This document shows positions 1,972 to 8,012 of a DNA stretch of 38,086 bases, piece after piece. The stretch is from an uncultured Prochlorococcus sp. (GTDB lineage: Bacteria > Cyanobacteriota > Cyanobacteriia > PCC-6307 > Cyanobiaceae). Below the pieces are notes generated by a model. It had not been told where the DNA came from. It saw nothing but the letters and a program-made list of their open reading frames with translations, and made no database searches. The stretch lies in the NCBI GenBank assembly GCA_902626435.1, contig CACOFO010000009.1, positions 1 to 38,086 on the forward strand, in the 5' to 3' direction. The position numbers and the translations under genes were made by a program. The first letter of the stretch is position 1; each line of letters begins with the position of its first letter.

Positions 1972-1997
1972 CCATTGATGTATCCCTTAATCAATGG
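1972..1997 (+). terminator. candidate hairpin after the 1751 gene
   Basis: CCATTGAT (1972-1979) and ATCAATGG (1990-1997) form a perfect 8-bp stem with a 10-nt loop, flanked by an A-rich stretch before and CTTATTAATT after. It begins 18 bases past the stop at 1954. The stem is AT-rich and the T-tract is interrupted, so it is a weak intrinsic terminator at best. The remaining DNA up to 2154 has stops in all frames and no recognisable RNA. Confidence 0.35.
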
Positions 1998-2154
1998 CTT
2001 ATTAATTCCTAAGATAATACAATTTAATTAAATTAGAACTGGTAATTATTAAGGCTTTATAAAGCTTGTTCTGTAAAAAGCTTATTCGTATTAAAAAAAT
2101 TTATTTTTTTACTCCCACAAAAAAGTTATTTAAATTCTATATTTGTATTAAAAT

Positions 2155-2547
2155 ATGAAAAATAAATTAACTTTTTTGTTCGACGGTGGTTGTCCACTTT
2201 GCTTGAGAGAAACAAATTTTCTAAAAAAAAGGGATATCTCAAATCAAATTTCATTTGTAGATATTAACAGTAAAAATTATGATCAAAATCTTTTTAAGGG
2301 AATCTCATATTCAGAAGCCATGTCAAACCTGCATGGGATTATGGAAAACGGTGAAATTATTAGAGGATTAGATGTGCTTGCATATTCTTATGAATTAATT
2401 GGATTAGGTTGGGTTTATTATCCTTTGAAAATTAATTTCTTATCTCCATTATTGAGGCGGGTTTACAGATATTGGGCAAAATATAGACTTAAAATTACAG
2501 GTCGATCTAACATTGAAAAACTTTGTACCTCTAAGTGTGATCAATAA
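2155..2547 (+). CDS. DCC-family thiol-disulfide oxidoreductase-like protein (DUF393)
   Basis: A 130-residue protein of the DCC/DUF393 family, named for its DGxCxxC motif, seen here as FDGGCPLC at residues 9-16 (C13 and C16). Family members have a thioredoxin-like arrangement with a CxxC redox pair and are assumed to be oxidoreductases, though physiological substrates are mostly unknown. A hydrophobic stretch (LGWVYYPLKINFLSPLL, about 85-101) may pack against the membrane or a partner. There is a second cysteine pair at the extreme C-terminus (C124 and C128). It is the first gene of a tight operon ending in the photolyase: 2 bp to the next start. That context suggests a supporting redox role, which is inference. 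Confidence 0.85.
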   Translation: MKNKLTFLFDGGCPLCLRETNFLKKRDISNQISFVDINSKNYDQNLFKGISYSEAMSNLHGIMENGEIIRGLDVLAYSYELIGLGWVYYPLKINFLSPLLRRVYRYWAKYRLKITGRSNIEKLCTSKCDQ

Positions 2548-2549
2548 AT

Positions 2550-2786
2550 ATGGAAAATATTGACATAGACAGAATAATAGAAATGTGTTGGGAAGATAGA
2601 ACACCGTTTGAAGCTATTGAGTATCAATTTGGTTTAAAAGAGGAAGATGCGATAAAAATTATGCGTCAAAATCTAAAATCTAAATCCTTCAAAGTTTGGC
2701 GAAAAAGAGTTTCGGGAAGAAATACTAAACATATGGCGCTTAAAGATTCAACTAGATTTAAATCTACTCATAGGAGAAAATTATAA
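2550..2786 (+). CDS. TIGR03643 (DUF2805) family small protein
   Basis: A 78-residue protein. The core IDRIIEMCWEDRTPFEAIEY, followed by a short turn and GLKEEDAIKIMRQ, matches the TIGR03643/DUF2805 family and looks like a helix-turn-helix of the Trp-repressor type. The second half (residues 40-78) is strongly basic, with FKVWRKRVSGRNTKHM and an Arg/Lys-rich tail, which fits nucleic-acid binding; that is inference. The biochemical role of the family is not established to my knowledge. It starts with ATG 2 bp after the DUF393 gene and ends 3 bp before the DUF2256 gene, so co-translation with the photolyase is likely. Confidence 0.85.
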   Translation: MENIDIDRIIEMCWEDRTPFEAIEYQFGLKEEDAIKIMRQNLKSKSFKVWRKRVSGRNTKHMALKDSTRFKSTHRRKL

Positions 2787-2789
2787 ATT

Positions 2790-2921
2790 TTGAAGAATCT
2801 TTCTACTAAAACTTGTCCTGTTTGCAATCGGCCATTCGAGTGGCGTAAGAAATGGAAAAACTGTTGGGATGATGTTATCTACTGTTCAAAAAAATGTAGT
2901 AATAGAAAGTCGCAAAGATGA
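2790..2921 (+). CDS. DUF2256 small zinc-binding protein, 43 aa
   Basis: A short ORF starting with TTG at 2790, 3 bp after the previous stop; an in-frame stop at 2784-2786 rules out an earlier start. It encodes 43 residues with CPVC at 9-12, a conserved basic/aromatic stretch ([14 protein letters not shown]) and CSKKC at 32-36, the DUF2256 pattern. The two cysteine pairs should bind one zinc ion. Its TGA (2919-2921) overlaps the photolyase ATG (2918-2920) as ATGA, which points to translational coupling. DUF2256 genes are, as far as I know, frequent neighbours of this photolyase family. The function is unknown; a nucleic-acid or protein-binding adaptor is a guess. Confidence 0.85.
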
Positions 2922-4408
2922 AACAAGTATCAATTATTTTTCCCAATCAACTTTTTAGAGAAAGCCCAATCTTAAAAATAAATTGTGAAATTTTAATTTT
3001 GGAAGACTCACTATTTTTTGGGAATGATAAATTTCATAAATTAATTAACCATAAAAATAAGTTAGTTTTTCATAGAGCATCTATGCTCGCTTATAAAAAA
3101 TATTTAGAAAAATCTGGCTTTAAAGTTTTATATATCGAAAACAAGAATAATATTTCGACAGTTGAATACTTATCAGAATTTATTAAAGATAAATATCAGA
3201 AAATAAATCTTATAGATCCTCATGATTTTTTAATAATGAAGAGGATCAAAAATTTTGTTGAAAGTAATAATTTAGCTTTAGATGTTCTTCCCTCTCCTAT
3301 GTTTATGAGCAGTGATGATTTAAAAGAGTTATTTGCATCAAATACAAAAAAACCTCTTATGGGTAGATTTTATGAGAAACAAAGAAAAAGCCAAAAGATA
3401 TTAATTAATTCGGATGAAACACCTGAAGGGGGTAAGTGGAGTTTCGATGAAATGAATAGGAAAAAATTACCAAAGAAAATAAGCATACCTGATACACCCA
3501 TATTACCAAAAAATAAATTTGTAATTTATGCCGAGAAGTCATTGGCTAATTTTGATATAGAGTTTATTGGAGAAAGTAATAACTTTATATATCCAACTAA
3601 TTTTGATGAGGCAGATAAATGGTTAAATGATTTTTTTAAAAATAGATTTTTCTTTTTTGGAGATTATGAAGATGCTATTTCTAATGAAAATTCTTTTTTA
3701 TGGCATAGTTTACTTTCTCCTCTCTTAAATAGTGGTTTACTAACGCCAAATGAAGTAGTAAATAAAGCATTACTTTATGCCAAAAATAATAATGTTCCAA
3801 TTAACTCTTTAGAGGGTTTTATTCGTCAAATTATTGGATGGAGAGAATTTATTTGCCTTGTCTATAAGAAGTATGGAACAGAGATGCGAAATAGTAATTT
3901 TTGGAATTTTGAAAATAAGCCAATTCCGAAATCTTTTTATCAAGGAAATACAGGAATTGAACCAGTAGACATTGTTATAAAAAATATTATTAAATTTGGT
4001 TATTGTCATCATATTGAGAGGCTTATGATTGTTGGCAATTTTATGCTTCTATGTAGAATTCACCCCAACCAAGTTTATAAATGGTTTATGGAAATGTTTA
4101 TTGATTCTTATGATTGGGTGATGGTACCTAATGTTTATGGAATGAGTCAGTTTAGTGATGGAGGTATTTTCTCAACTAAACCATATATTTCAAGCTCTAA
4201 TTATGTAAAAAAAATGTCAAATTTTAAAAGTGGACCTTGGTGTACAATATGGGATGGCTTATTTTGGAAATTTATTAAAGATAATGAAATCTTTTTTAGG
4301 AAGCAATATCGACTAGCAATGTTAACGCGAAATCTCGATAAAATGCCAGAGGAAAGATTAAATAATCACTTAAAAACGGCAGATAAATTTTTAAAAAATA
4401 TTCAATGA
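2918..4408 (+). CDS. FeS-BCP family photolyase/cryptochrome (DPRP, (6-4)-type) lacking the FeS cysteines
   Basis: A 496-residue protein of the deoxyribodipyrimidine photolyase-related family (PhrB/CryB group), flavoproteins that use FAD and blue light to repair (6-4) photoproducts or sense light. The N-terminal Rossmann domain (about 1-130) starts with SIIFPNQLF and should hold the antenna pigment. The C-terminal FAD domain has [13 protein letters not shown] (299-311), [15 protein letters not shown] (361-375, with H364 and H365 at the family's catalytic His-His position) and [13 protein letters not shown] (404-416). Of the four cysteines that hold the 4Fe-4S cluster, only C442 remains: the first aligns with P349, the CxxC pair with K437 and a shortened loop. 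The start ATG overlaps the DUF2256 stop. Repair substrate and cluster loss are inferred from alignment by eye. Confidence 0.9.
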
Positions 4409-4513: not shown

Positions 4514-4693
4514 ATGGAAATTGGAACACTTTTTTTGAAAAGTAATTCAACAGGAATTATCACTTTTTCTGAATTAGATTGGATAACTACCCATCAATCT
4601 AAGTTTTCAAGATTAGAGGAATCTATAGCCATTAAGTTAGGAAGAATGCTTGATTCAGGATCTATAAATATAGGTTGCCGTTTAAATTCCTGA
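4514..4693 (+). CDS. small conserved protein of unknown function, 59 aa
   Basis: ATG at 4514 opens a 59-codon frame ending in TGA (4691-4693). The protein begins MEIGTLFLKSNSTGIITFSE, then a helical segment with LEESIAIKLGRMLDSG, and ends IGCRLNS. The mix of hydrophobic and charged residues looks coded rather than random. It has no signal peptide or membrane span. It stands alone 105 bp after the photolyase gene, in a stretch otherwise empty of genes (4409-4906). I recall proteins of this shape as conserved hypotheticals in picocyanobacteria but cannot name a family. Confidence 0.6.
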   Translation: MEIGTLFLKSNSTGIITFSELDWITTHQSKFSRLEESIAIKLGRMLDSGSINIGCRLNS

Positions 4694-4712: not shown

Positions 4713-4856
4713 ATGAAGTATCAAGAAAAGAAAAATTTATTATTTAGGGAAAGAGTTCATTCTTTAAACATCTTTCTTTTTTTAGGATTTAATCTTACAC
4801 TCATTTCTGTCCTAGGTTTTATTTGGTTCAATTCTTCAATTGAAAAAGTAGTTTAA
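4713..4856 (+). CDS. small single-span membrane protein, 47 aa
   Basis: ATG at 4713, TAA at 4854-4856. The 47 residues have a basic N-terminus (MKYQEKKNLLFRERVHS) followed by one strongly hydrophobic segment (NIFLFLGFNLTLISVLGFIWF, about 19-39) and a short polar tail, so the positive-inside rule puts the N-terminus in the cytoplasm. It follows the 59-aa ORF by 19 bp on the same strand and may share its transcript. No family is recognised. AT-rich DNA readily yields hydrophobic frames, which limits confidence, but the sharp charge/hydrophobic pattern is typical of real small membrane proteins. Confidence 0.5.
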   Translation: MKYQEKKNLLFRERVHSLNIFLFLGFNLTLISVLGFIWFNSSIEKVV

Positions 4857-4906: not shown

Positions 4907-6223
4907 TTGAGCCTTGGATATTTACAAAGAAAAGCAGCTTGGGAAATTTTATTAAAAGTTAGTTCAGGTGATTTTTCTGATCATGCCCTTGAAAAGGTTT
5001 TGAAAAATTATCAATTTGATCCTCTTGATATTGCTTTTATTACTGAATTATCTTTTGGATGTATAAGGTATAGAAAATTTCTTGATCTTTGGGTGGATCA
5101 TACATCAAAAATTACTCATAAAAAGCAGCCTCCAAAATTAAGATGGCTTTTACATGTAGGTTTATATCAACTATTGAAAATGGATAAAATTCCATTTCGT
5201 GCAGCTATTTCTACTACTGTAGAAGTAGCTAAAAAAACACATTTAAAGGGTTTAACAGGAACTGTAAATGCGATATTGAGAAATGCATCAAAAAAAATAA
5301 ATCATGAAATATTTCCAAAAATATCTTCTGATAAAAAAGAAAAAATTTCTTATCTTGAGTCATTGCCATTATGGCTTGTAAATGATCTTTATAAATGGGT
5401 AGGAAATAATGATGCTGAAAATATCGCTAAGGCATTTAATAAAAAACCTTCAATTGATTTGAGAATTAACCAACTAAAAACTGATTTAGATGAGTTTATG
5501 AAAGTACTTCATGAAAACAAAATTGATGCTGAAATTATTAAGGATTTTAATAATGGAATTACATTAAAATCTAATCCAAGATCTATTAAAAAATTACCAG
5601 GATATAGTGATGGACTTTGGACAATTCAAGATAGATCTTCTCAGTGGGTAGCACCTCTTTTAGATCCAAAACAAGGTGAAAAGATTTTAGATGCTTGTGC
5701 AGCGCCAGGTAGTAAATCTACGCACTTGGCAGAATTAGTAAATGATAGTGCTGAAATACTAGCTGTAGATAGATCAGAAAAAAGATTGAAAATACTTCAA
5801 TCAAATTTAGAAAGGTTAAATTTAAAATCTATCAATATCCTCAAGGCTGATGCAACAAGATTGATTGAATTAAATCCAAATTTTATATCTTATTTTGATA
5901 AGATTTTGTTAGATGCCCCCTGTTCTGGGATTGGAACTCTTTCAAGGAATCCTGATTCGAGATGGTCTTTAAGTAAAGAAAAAATAAAATCCTTAACTTT
6001 ATTGCAGGAAAAACTATTACAAAGTATTGTTCCTCTTTTGAAAAAAGATGGAACTTTAGTTTATTCAACTTGTACTATCTGCCCTGATGAAAATAATTTC
6101 TTAATTGAAAGATTTATTGAAAAAAACAAAGATTTAAGGTTAGTTAGCCAAAAACAAATTTTACCTAGCTTAGACTTCCCTGGTGATGGATTTTATTCTG
6201 CAATAATTTCTTATAAAACTTAA
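4907..6223 (+). CDS. rsmB: 16S rRNA (cytosine-967-C5)-methyltransferase RsmB/Sun
   Basis: 438-residue m5C methyltransferase. An N-terminal NusB-like RNA-binding domain (about 1-130, with GCIRYRKFLDLWV and NAILRN) precedes the Rossmann catalytic domain. SAM-binding motif I is DACAAPGSKS (262-271). The two characteristic cysteines are C339 in DAPCSG (336-341) and the nucleophile C389 in YSTCT (386-390). This two-domain order distinguishes RsmB from RsmF. The start is TTG at 4907; the translated N-terminus SLGYLQRKAAWEIL begins the NusB domain as expected. It meets the PBP gene tail to tail with a 10-bp gap. Confidence 0.92.
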   Translation: MSLGYLQRKAAWEILLKVSSGDFSDHALEKVLKNYQFDPLDIAFITELSFGCIRYRKFLDLWVDHTSKITHKKQPPKLRWLLHVGLYQLLKMDKIPFRAAISTTVEVAKKTHLKGLTGTVNAILRNASKKINHEIFPKISSDKKEKISYLESLPLWLVNDLYKWVGNNDAENIAKAFNKKPSIDLRINQLKTDLDEFMKVLHENKIDAEIIKDFNNGITLKSNPRSIKKLPGYSDGLWTIQDRSSQWVAPLLDPKQGEKILDACAAPGSKSTHLAELVNDSAEILAVDRSEKRLKILQSNLERLNLKSINILKADATRLIELNPNFISYFDKILLDAPCSGIGTLSRNPDSRWSLSKEKIKSLTLLQEKLLQSIVPLLKKDGTLVYSTCTICPDENNFLIERFIEKNKDLRLVSQKQILPSLDFPGDGFYSAIISYKT

Positions 6224-6233
6224 AAATAAAATT

Positions 6234-8012
6234 TTATTTTTTAATTGGGATTTTAAAAATTTCAGCTATAAATTTCTTCCATAAATAAGCTGCATTTCCA
6301 CTAGATAATTTAGATTCTTTATTATCGTCGTAACCTATCCAAATACCTGTTGTAAGGTTATCAAGTGAACCAATAAACCAAAGATCTCTATTCCCATCAG
6401 ATGTTCCTGTTTTTCCATAAATTTTCTTTCCTTTTATAGAGGCTGCTTTCGAAGTACCTTCTTTTACTGATTTTTCAAGAAGTTTATTTATTTTTTTATT
6501 AACTTTTAAATCTAATATTTTCTTGGGAATAGATTTGTTTTCCCAAATAGTTTGATTATTAAATGATTCTATTTTTTCTAAAATGCTAGGGCTTTGAATC
6601 TTCCCATTATTATTAATCGCAGAATATACATTTGTAATGTTTAATAGATTATCTCCATAGGAACCAATAGCTAATGATAGAAATTCCTTGAACTTTTGTT
6701 CATAACCCAGACCAAATGAATTCGCTAGATTAATAATATTTTTTAAGCCGATTTTTTTTGTTATTGATATTGGAACGATATTTGATGAACTTTTAAATGA
6801 TTCAATCAAAGAGACTGAACCTTTATAGTCTTCTGAAAAATTTTTTGGGCAATAACTTTCCCAGCATGTTGGTAAGTCTTCAAATTTATCGCTTAGTTTT
6901 ATCCCTTCTATTAATGCTGCAGCATAAGGAATTACTTTAAAAGTAGAACCTAGAGGTCTTATATTTGATGTTACTCTATTATATTCGTTAATTGATGGAT
7001 TTTTGCTGGTTATCATTGTCCTTATTAAACCAGTTTTTGATTCGATTGATAACAGAGCAAATTCAAGTTCTTTAGGCCCAGCATATCTAGATATGTTTTG
7101 GGCTTTTTCTTGCCAATCTTTGTTGATAGAAGTTTTAATTCTTAAAAACTTATAATCCTCAATATTTTCAATTCTTTTATCTGTTTCCTCAAGAATAAAG
7201 TTTATTAGTAATTTATCATCTAAAAAATTATCAGCTGTTTGATAATTTAAGTTTATTCTCTCTTCAATAGCCTTATTTTTATTAGCTAGAGAAATATATC
7301 CATCAAGATACATTGATTCAAGAACTTTATTTCTATTTTTAATAGCTAGTTCTACATTTTGATAGGGTGAATAAAAAGAAGGAGCTGGAGCTAATCCCGC
7401 AATTAATGCGATCTCTGATAAGGTCAACTCTTCGATTAGTTTCCCAAAATAAACTTGAGAAGCTTCGTTAACCCCGTATGCTCCTGATCCTAAATAAATA
7501 TTATTTAAATATATTTTTAAAATTTGATTTTTATCATATCTAAATTCAAGTATTAGTGATATAAATATTTCTTTGATTTTTCTTTGAATACTTAAATCAT
7601 TATTTAGATAAAGTATTCTTGCAAGTTGTTGAGTAATCGTACTTCCTCCCTCTTTAACATAACCACTTCTAATATTTTGAAAAATGGCACGAGCAATACT
7701 TTTTAAATCTATTCCATTGTGTTTGTAAAAGATTTTATCCTCAGAAGATATAAAAGCATGTTTTAAAAAAGGTGGAATTTTATTTTTACAATTATTTATT
7801 TCAAATTTCCTGCTTAATTTGCTTAATATTTTTTTATCAGAAGATGATATTACATAAGAATAATTGGTTGTGCGAGAACTTTTATTTTTAGATACATCAA
7901 ATTTAAATGTAGTAATTATTAGACTATAAATATAAAAAAATATTCCTGAAAAAATTAATATTGGAATTATTAAAACAAAAGATTTGGATTTAATCTTTTG
8001 CACCTTAAGCAA
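6234..8012 (-). CDS. class A penicillin-binding protein (glycosyltransferase GT51 + transpeptidase)
   Basis: Bifunctional peptidoglycan synthase anchored by one N-terminal membrane segment (about 12-35). The GT51 domain has catalytic E91 in the segment SSEDKIFYKHNG (89-100), EGGSTITQQLAR (121-132) and the YLNNIYLGSGAYG block (168-180). The transpeptidase domain has the active-site serine S356 in STFK (356-359), the SSN triad (409-411) and KTGTSDG (534-540). At 592 aa it is a compact class A PBP, with little C-terminal extension and no PASTA or OB insertion evident. Its start overlaps the 3' end of chlG by 8 bp on the same strand, so the two are probably co-transcribed. Which class A PBP it is (1A/1B/1C) I cannot say. 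Confidence 0.93.
   Translation of the reverse strand: MLKVQKIKSKSFVLIIPILIFSGIFFYIYSLIITTFKFDVSKNKSSRTTNYSYVISSSDKKILSKLSRKFEINNCKNKIPPFLKHAFISSEDKIFYKHNGIDLKSIARAIFQNIRSGYVKEGGSTITQQLARILYLNNDLSIQRKIKEIFISLILEFRYDKNQILKIYLNNIYLGSGAYGVNEASQVYFGKLIEELTLSEIALIAGLAPAPSFYSPYQNVELAIKNRNKVLESMYLDGYISLANKNKAIEERINLNYQTADNFLDDKLLINFILEETDKRIENIEDYKFLRIKTSINKDWQEKAQNISRYAGPKELEFALLSIESKTGLIRTMITSKNPSINEYNRVTSNIRPLGSTFKVIPYAAALIEGIKLSDKFEDLPTCWESYCPKNFSEDYKGSVSLIESFKSSSNIVPISITKKIGLKNIINLANSFGLGYEQKFKEFLSLAIGSYGDNLLNITNVYSAINNNGKIQSPSILEKIESFNNQTIWENKSIPKKILDLKVNKKINKLLEKSVKEGTSKAASIKGKKIYGKTGTSDGNRDLWFIGSLDNLTTGIWIGYDDNKESKLSSGNAAYLWKKFIAEIFKIPIKK

Follow-up and report, generated by a model that had tools for sequence, protein, structure and literature searches.

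The window analysed here, a stretch of 38,086 nucleotides from an uncultured Prochlorococcus sp. (contig CACOFO010000009.1, assembly GCA_902626435.1), contains a four-gene unit that ends with a photolyase gene of the DPRP family. This gene is preceded by those for three small proteins: a DCC1-like thiol-disulfide oxidoreductase (DUF393), DUF2805 (TIGR03643) and the mini-protein DUF2256. In textbooks, a photolyase is a repair machine made of a single protein. The unexpected part is that one or two of the partners accompany the DPRP class across very different bacteria, which makes them candidate helpers. Because DUF2256 goes with DPRP genes outside the close relatives of the window, a role in photorepair is plausible. 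Statements credited to cited papers refer to excerpts of these papers.

The four-gene unit and its photolyase

All four open reading frames (ORFs) lie on the plus strand and follow each other with a 2 bp gap, a 3 bp gap and a 4-bp overlap (Table 1). An initial annotation of the window had proposed this arrangement together with the labels DUF393, TIGR03643 and DUF2256. The arrangement agrees with the ORFs and is kept in Prochlorococcus-type loci, and the labels are confirmed by profile scores above the cut-offs. The first gene matches PF04134, a broad family, with 88.6 bits (cut-off 27.8), and its product contains the CxxC of DCC1-like oxidoreductases. The second matches both PF10985 in Pfam (109.8 bits, cut-off 22.5) and TIGR03643 in NCBIfam (121.4 bits, cut-off 66.55). 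The third combines a PF10013 match of 65 bits (cut-off 25) with the four-Cys pattern of DUF2256. All four genes are found together in 34 of 35 Prochlorococcus-type loci (L059-L093). Spacings are exactly 2, 3 and -4 in 28 of these 34, and some of the other six deviate solely through the start codon picked by the ORF caller. L087, in which the DCC1 and DPRP genes are broken by frame changes, is counted among the 34. Pairwise ratios of nonsynonymous to synonymous substitution rates (dN/dS; pairs with dS <=0.05 or >=2 excluded) of 0.162 for DCC1, 0.045 for DUF2805, 0.099 for DUF2256 and 0.154 for DPRP indicate purifying selection on all four genes. Five neighbouring genes range from 0.096 to 0.292, so that DUF2805 is the most constrained of nine genes tested. 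The source genome assembly of the window is 65% complete. The four-gene unit is real, and the four genes presumably share a single transcript.

The sole exception among the 35 loci is L091 (Prochlorococcus AG-355-G23, 5278-7152), where DPRP is in frame with the 5' part of a neighbouring gene. The fused piece belongs to a gene that lies on the opposite strand in the window (6234-8012) and that we take to encode a penicillin-binding protein. This fusion is probably an amplification chimera in a single-cell genome. The unit is also present, with 92% identity to the window, on a contig filed under the Rhodobacteraceae metagenome-assembled genome (MAG) DT_101 (L060), a probable Prochlorococcus contamination.

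The small partners carry conserved motifs. In DCC1, D10, G11, C13, P14 and C16 are invariant in 6 sequences. In DUF2256, the same holds for C9, C12, C32 and C36 in 16 sequences, and this four-Cys finger probably binds a metal. Among proteins no longer than 50 aa, DUF2256 is reported to be common (PMC11796252). Its AlphaFold2 model (pLDDT 83) shows a pair of short strands plus a helix at the C-terminus. The best shapes for this model in Foldseek are the zinc fingers YacG (E 0.3) and FCS (E 0.83) of the TRASH clan; neither is significant. The similarity to YacG is weak (Z 3.3 across 36 residues), and YacG (DUF329) is absent from the Pfam matches of DUF2256 at E up to 1. Weaker matches are ribosome chains, which we take for L24e, a name that the search output does not give. 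The YacG- and FCS-like shapes agree with the assignment of DUF2256 to the TRASH clan (PMC4047054). Natural DUF2256 fusions were considered and rejected: the long frames in L151, L157, L161, L162, L171, L176 and L177 look, by eye, like upstream extensions. For DUF2805, the AlphaFold2 model has five helices including a helix-turn-helix (HTH)-like pair (pLDDT 78). Its fold matches LsrR, SorC, DeoR and sigma region 4 are all weak (best Z 4.2, lowest Foldseek E 2.5).

The fourth gene encodes a photolyase with DPRP-type N-terminal and FAD-binding domains (PF04244, 148.1 bits, cut-off 22.1; PF03441, 32 bits, cut-off 27). An alignment with 15 homologues revealed that all four Fe-S cysteine positions are lost together. 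Among 176 aligned DPRP rows this state is all-or-none, with CCCC in 80 and none of the cysteines in 96. A FastTree phylogeny of 130 rows, from which DUF-centred loci, ORFs <430 aa and identical rows had been dropped and which keeps 3 of the 35 loci L059-L093 plus L039 and the window, displays one change of cysteine state, with the window protein on the cluster-free side. The FeS-BCP label in the initial annotation is wrong because the four cluster cysteines are absent. As judged from alignment and tree, the window photolyase is of the cluster-free PromaPL/Phr2 type (subgroup M), a class already published: it is a DPRP homologue without the cysteines, within a single cluster-free group.

P. marinus PromaPL belongs to subgroup M of the prokaryotic 6-4 photolyases (PMC9178010), and Phr2 is the picocyanobacterial name for the cluster-free enzyme (PMC9426592). 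The lesion is disputed, as PromaPL is grouped with 6-4 enzymes (PMC9178010) and cyclobutane pyrimidine dimer (CPD) activity is suggested for Phr2 (PMC9426592). The DPRP N-terminal domain, the four-cysteine loss and the genus are shared with the window, whereas the excerpts of both papers do not mention small neighbours (PMC9178010, PMC9426592). DPRPs of loci titled P. marinus MIT 9201 and MIT 9401 (L074, L079) are 90 and 91% identical to that of the window, a comparison that did not include PromaPL's own sequence. In Synechococcus RS9916, unlike in the window, phr2 is located downstream of uvrC; its disruption cut UV-B survival about 1,000-fold (PMC9426592). Agrobacterium PhrB (4dja) and Rhodobacter CryB (3zxs) are homologous to residues 44-493 of the window photolyase (phmmer E 2.4e-68 and 6.2e-61), but they contain a [4Fe-4S] cluster, and the window protein has none of its four ligands. 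Prochlorococcus also has an operon of a photolyase and a second gene, but there the partner is a nudix hydrolase (Osburne 2010, PMC2955971), and other authors name that photolyase phrA (PMC2921402), unlike the DPRP of the window. On a contig filed under Microbacteriaceae (L107), the DPRP is cluster-free and clusters in the tree with sequences from Verrucomicrobiales and Akkermansiaceae, probably owing to a binning error.

DUF2256 and DPRP photolyases across phyla

Profile searches of 200 Pseudomonadota, 138 Bacteroidota and 117 Cyanobacteria genomes found DUF2256 in 36, 44 and 51, DPRP in 38, 43 and 34 and DUF2805 in 12, 39 and 21 of them, respectively; the photolyase FAD domain PF03441 is present in 88 Pseudomonadota and 87 Bacteroidota. 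Counted as both, first only, DPRP only and neither, DUF2256 and DPRP yield 31/5/7/157 in Pseudomonadota (Fisher p 1.7e-24), 41/3/2/92 in Bacteroidota (Fisher p 5e-29) and 31/20/3/63 in Cyanobacteria (p 1e-11). The Pseudomonadota figures become 30/5/8/157 without G118, a Rhodobacteraceae MAG whose DUF2256, DUF2805 and one of two DPRP matches come solely from a Prochlorococcus contaminant contig. The 44 Bacteroidota include G339 (24.6 bits, below the cut-off) and G410 (a 22-residue match). Among genomes with DUF2256, all 36 of the Pseudomonadota and 43 of the 44 Bacteroidota have at least one gene of the photolyase family (base rates 89/200 and 87/138). Genomes that have another photolyase-family gene but no DPRP carry DUF2256 in only 5 of 51 (Pseudomonadota) and 2 of 44 cases (Bacteroidota). 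Therefore, the correlate of DUF2256 is the DPRP class rather than photolyases in general. The reading as a Prochlorococcus-only accident was rejected, since the pair is also associated in Pseudomonadota and Bacteroidota. Of the 14 named control genomes, DUF2256 occurs in Caulobacter vibrioides and Synechococcus elongatus, and DPRP in these two and Haloferax volcanii.

DUF2805 and DPRP give 11/1/27/161 in Pseudomonadota, 33/6/10/89 in Bacteroidota and 12/9/22/74 in Cyanobacteria, an association weaker than that of DUF2256. The initial annotation had named association beyond close relatives as one touchstone of its proposal; DUF2256 shows it in Pseudomonadota and Bacteroidota, DUF2805 more weakly.

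DUF2256 and DPRP genes are also neighbours in part of the loci. In 29 of the 130 tree rows, DUF2256 is located on the same strand within 300 bp of DPRP, 23 times upstream and 6 times downstream; outside Prochlorococcus the count is 23 of 124. On the DPRP gene tree, the adjacent or not-adjacent state needs 15 changes. Adjacency is found in 19 of 57 cluster-free and 10 of 73 Fe-S rows, and the link is independent of the cluster because both kinds have it. Of the 36 Pseudomonadota copies of DUF2256, 19 lie within 2 kb of a photolyase-family gene and 14 within 2 kb of DPRP; of the 44 Bacteroidota copies, these numbers are at least 31 and 19. For DUF2805, 3 of 12 Pseudomonadota and at least 15 of 42 Bacteroidota copies lie within 5 kb of a photolyase-family gene. 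The Bacteroidota values for closeness to a photolyase are lower bounds, as weaker PF03441 rows were left out. Seven cluster-free Bacteroidota loci (L112, L117, L119, L124, L126, L131, L134) have the Prochlorococcus-like 4-base overlap of DUF2256 and DPRP. The islands in such Bacteroidota contain in addition DUF2805, DASH cryptochrome, other photolyases, short-chain dehydrogenases and flavin reductase, which accounts for 9 of 85 neighbour proteins scanned (chosen from 199 listed). They also encode a protein of about 370 aa with an FAD domain near its start, probably a short photolyase. Two cyanobacteria belonging to one family (code f7) have DUF2805 ahead of an Fe-S DPRP, at a distance of 98 (L045) and 220 bases (L044). 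DCC1 adjoins DUF2805 in L037 and L142 and DPRP in L210, and a weak match lies near DUF2256-DPRP in L179/L194, which are one and the same place.

Two loci are described here for their gene content. In the divergent Prochlorococcus AG-402-K04 (L103, 5569-10174), the order is DUF2805, DUF2256, DPRP, AhpC/TSA, short photolyase and dehydrogenase. This extended unit adjoins a tandem array of four paralogues, perhaps pcb antenna genes; three encode about 350 aa each, and the fourth is truncated where the locus ends. The cyanobacterium G048 has a full-length DUF2805 match beside a 48-residue DPRP match (contig C496, 13758-14160), as if the photolyase had decayed while its partner stayed.

Possible roles: accessory proteins, a light-protection island or others

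We lean, tentatively, towards the explanation that the partners are accessory proteins that improve photorepair through lesion access or binding by DPRP and are not required for catalysis. The unit would be a light-driven DNA-repair operon whose products arise from one transcript. The DPRP flavoprotein alone would perform the photochemistry on ultraviolet (UV) lesions. DUF2256, with a four-Cys finger of the TRASH/FCS kind, and the HTH-like DUF2805 would be two accessory nucleic-acid-binding proteins that assist DPRP in cells in locating lesions, gaining access to them or staying bound. DCC1 would act as thiol-disulfide oxidoreductase of the unit. Both nucleic-acid binding by the partners and the improvement of repair are inferred; the nearest PDB shapes of the DUF2256 model are weakly matched and only compatible with such a role.

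A bolder version, which we regard as rather doubtful, sees in DUF2256 a dedicated accessory subunit of both Fe-S and cluster-free DPRP photolyases, a minimal finger whose task is to load them onto damaged DNA (or RNA). DUF2805 would then act as another helper, built on an HTH, which the short photolyase branch would share. If this were true, DPRP-class photolyases would not be purely single-protein machines, and the helper that was postulated for PhrB in 2011 would be DUF2256. A 2017 study by Ma et al. reportedly found, according to its title, that divalent cations raise the activity of bacterial (6-4) photolyases. The 2011 study of Agrobacterium PhrB saw no repair by the purified protein and remarked that it might need an accessory protein not yet identified (PMC3204975). 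An effect of divalent cations on bacterial (6-4) photolyases is also described in PMC9178010, and the remark on a helper therefore has another answer, too. The DUF2256-DPRP association makes this remark directly testable by experiment in laboratory strains. A conserved, separately encoded partner would alter the way in which cellular photolyase activity is measured, and two families that have no assigned function, DUF2256 and DUF2805, would gain one. An open-access paper joining DUF2256 with a photolyase was not found, and an earlier report elsewhere is possible. Excerpts of open-access papers on DUF2256 and of one on DUF2805 contain no photolyase link, and no open-access paper was found for TIGR03643.

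A number of observations weigh against an accessory role. Within the cyanobacterial class and among the matches listed, DPRP is associated neither with DUF2256 (29/18/0/2, p 0.16) nor with DUF2805 (12/9/17/11, p 1), and DUF2256 is present in 47 of 49 genomes with or without DPRP. Over all Cyanobacteria, DPRP is missing from 20 of 51 genomes with DUF2256. A further 30 cyanobacterial loci, centred on DUF2256 and flanked by 1.5 kb, contain no ORF that matches the DPRP of the window, and the neighbours look, by eye, like housekeeping genes; genome-search loci generally span only about 1.5 kb on each side. Among L094-L138, DUF2256 is near DPRP in none of 20 Verrucomicrobia-titled loci, several of them on short contigs, and one of the 20 (L096) has DUF2805 about 3 kb away. 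DUF2805 was found in none of the 14 control genomes. The p-values of co-occurrence ignore kinship, and descent inflates them by an unknown amount; the repeated changes of neighbouring genes on the DPRP tree are the one answer available to this inflation. Furthermore, phr2 of RS9916 alone conferred nearly tenfold higher light-dependent survival on E. coli (PMC9426592). The partners are therefore not needed for the basic activity of that orthologue, and the idea that they are necessary was not sustained. In Synechococcus WH7803, phr2 transcript levels reportedly stay level over the daily cycle and do not respond to UV with an increase (PMC9426592), an argument against UV induction of the unit in this strain. 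For Prochlorococcus, excerpts of PMC2921402 and PMC3441193 deal with photolyase genes that are different or not clearly assigned, and no expression data on this unit were found. From the photorepair module of the initial annotation, in which the partners may supply electrons, recognise damage or help folding, the DUF2256-DPRP association beyond close relatives stands, in co-occurrence as well as in adjacency, but it is absent within the cyanobacterial class.

The picture from named plasmids is mixed. Fourteen loci were chosen for variety (10 DUF2256, 4 DUF2805) from 67 and 43 matching PLSDB records; ten were profile-scanned and four judged by annotation, which is incomplete in PLSDB. A photolyase is located within 5-6 kb in only 4 of the 10 DUF2256 and 1 of the 4 DUF2805 loci. 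DUF2256 follows a 'cryptochrome/photolyase' gene by at most 40 bases on plasmids of Rhizobium sp. K1/93, Rhizobium sp. SL42 and Acinetobacter sp. WY4 and lies within 1 kb of such a gene on that of Vibrio parahaemolyticus I14B; in the remaining 6 loci no photolyase was seen nearby. The one DUF2805 locus of this kind is on an Acinetobacter nosocomialis plasmid (L304, 7240-8911), where DUF2256 and DUF2805 adjoin a DPRP gene that is interrupted and spread across three reading frames. Searches of phage records with DUF2805 and DUF2256 (tblastn) gave no match.

The closest rival, a real possibility, is a shared light-protection island without a shared mechanism. Here, the partners would do a separate job under UV or oxidative stress, for instance at RNA, ribosome, gyrase or membranes, and would only travel and be co-expressed with photolyases. 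The cyanobacterial genomes with DUF2256 and no DPRP, and the 30 loci with DUF2256 beside housekeeping-like genes and DPRP elsewhere or missing, are in line with it. So are OsmC, MsrB, lipocalin and desaturase, which the islands carry along with flavin reductase and short-chain dehydrogenases, and the weakly matched shapes of DUF2256, YacG and, lower down, ribosome chains. A precedent is RudS (DUF1722-TudS), a once function-less domain whose genes are often found in light-responsive operons with photolyases, but its substrate is tRNA (thiouridine) (PMC11417400). However, a general light island does not predict that DUF2256 is rare in genomes with non-DPRP photolyases only, and adjacency of DUF2256 and DPRP in both gene orders also argues against it.

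It is unlikely that the unit is a regulatory module, in which DUF2805, as a small HTH protein, would control the operon (the upstream palindrome being a conceivable site) and DUF2256 would modulate expression. The HTH-like model, regulators and sigma region 4 among its matches and the conservation of the palindrome would fit, but these matches are weak, and DUF2805 lies within 5 kb of a photolyase-family gene in the above 3 of 12 and at least 15 of 42 copies. Very unlikely is a cofactor factor that loads or repairs Fe-S cluster, antenna or flavin. Conserved cysteine motifs in DCC1 and DUF2256 would suit such a role. On the other hand, DUF2256 neighbours cluster-free enzymes as well as Fe-S ones, and the Fe-S enzyme SePhrB was able to repair 6-4 photoproducts when produced in E. 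coli (PMC9178010), a species that is not among the control genomes with a DUF2256 match. A role of DUF2256 confined to the Fe-S cluster is unlikely because it sits beside cluster-free photolyases too, and this candidate was discarded.

Flanking sequence of the unit

Upstream of the first gene, a 12-bp palindrome is a possible operator or promoter element, as judged from its conservation. A 20-base string around it has an exact match in 32 of 300 loci, with one copy per locus. Further upstream, a conserved stem-loop recurs nowhere else in the window, even if up to 3 mismatches are allowed. It is preceded by a 67-aa ORF (1751-1954) with a dN/dS of 0.096 and no Pfam match at E up to 1.

Table 1. 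The four-gene unit and upstream elements in the window.
Feature	Position	Strand	Basis
Conserved stem-loop CCATTGAT..ATCAATGG, between preceding small ORF and unit	1972..1997	+	Upstream-region alignment
12-bp palindrome GCTTTATAAAGC upstream of first gene	2054..2065		Upstream alignment, exact string search
DCC1-like thiol-disulfide oxidoreductase (PF04134, DUF393), 130 aa, motif DGGCPLC	2155..2547	+	ORF, Pfam
DUF2805/TIGR03643 protein, 78 aa, predicted helical HTH-like core, basic tail	2550..2786	+	Profiles, AlphaFold2
DUF2256 (PF10013) mini-protein, 43 aa, TTG start, four-Cys CxxC..CxxxC finger	2790..2921	+	Pfam, alignment
DPRP photolyase, 496 aa, classed as cluster-free prokaryotic (6-4) photolyase type (PromaPL/Phr2, subgroup M)	2918..4408	+	Pfam, alignment, tree

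A promoter scan yielded 15 sites compared to 16.9 in shuffles, and a terminator scan yielded one site only, within the DPRP gene, compared to 0.6 in shuffles. Two small ORFs without a Pfam family above cut-off are located downstream of the unit, at 4514-4693 (59 aa) and 4713-4856 (47 aa). They are present in 32 and 28 of 34 loci searched and have dN/dS values of 0.173 and 0.292, respectively.

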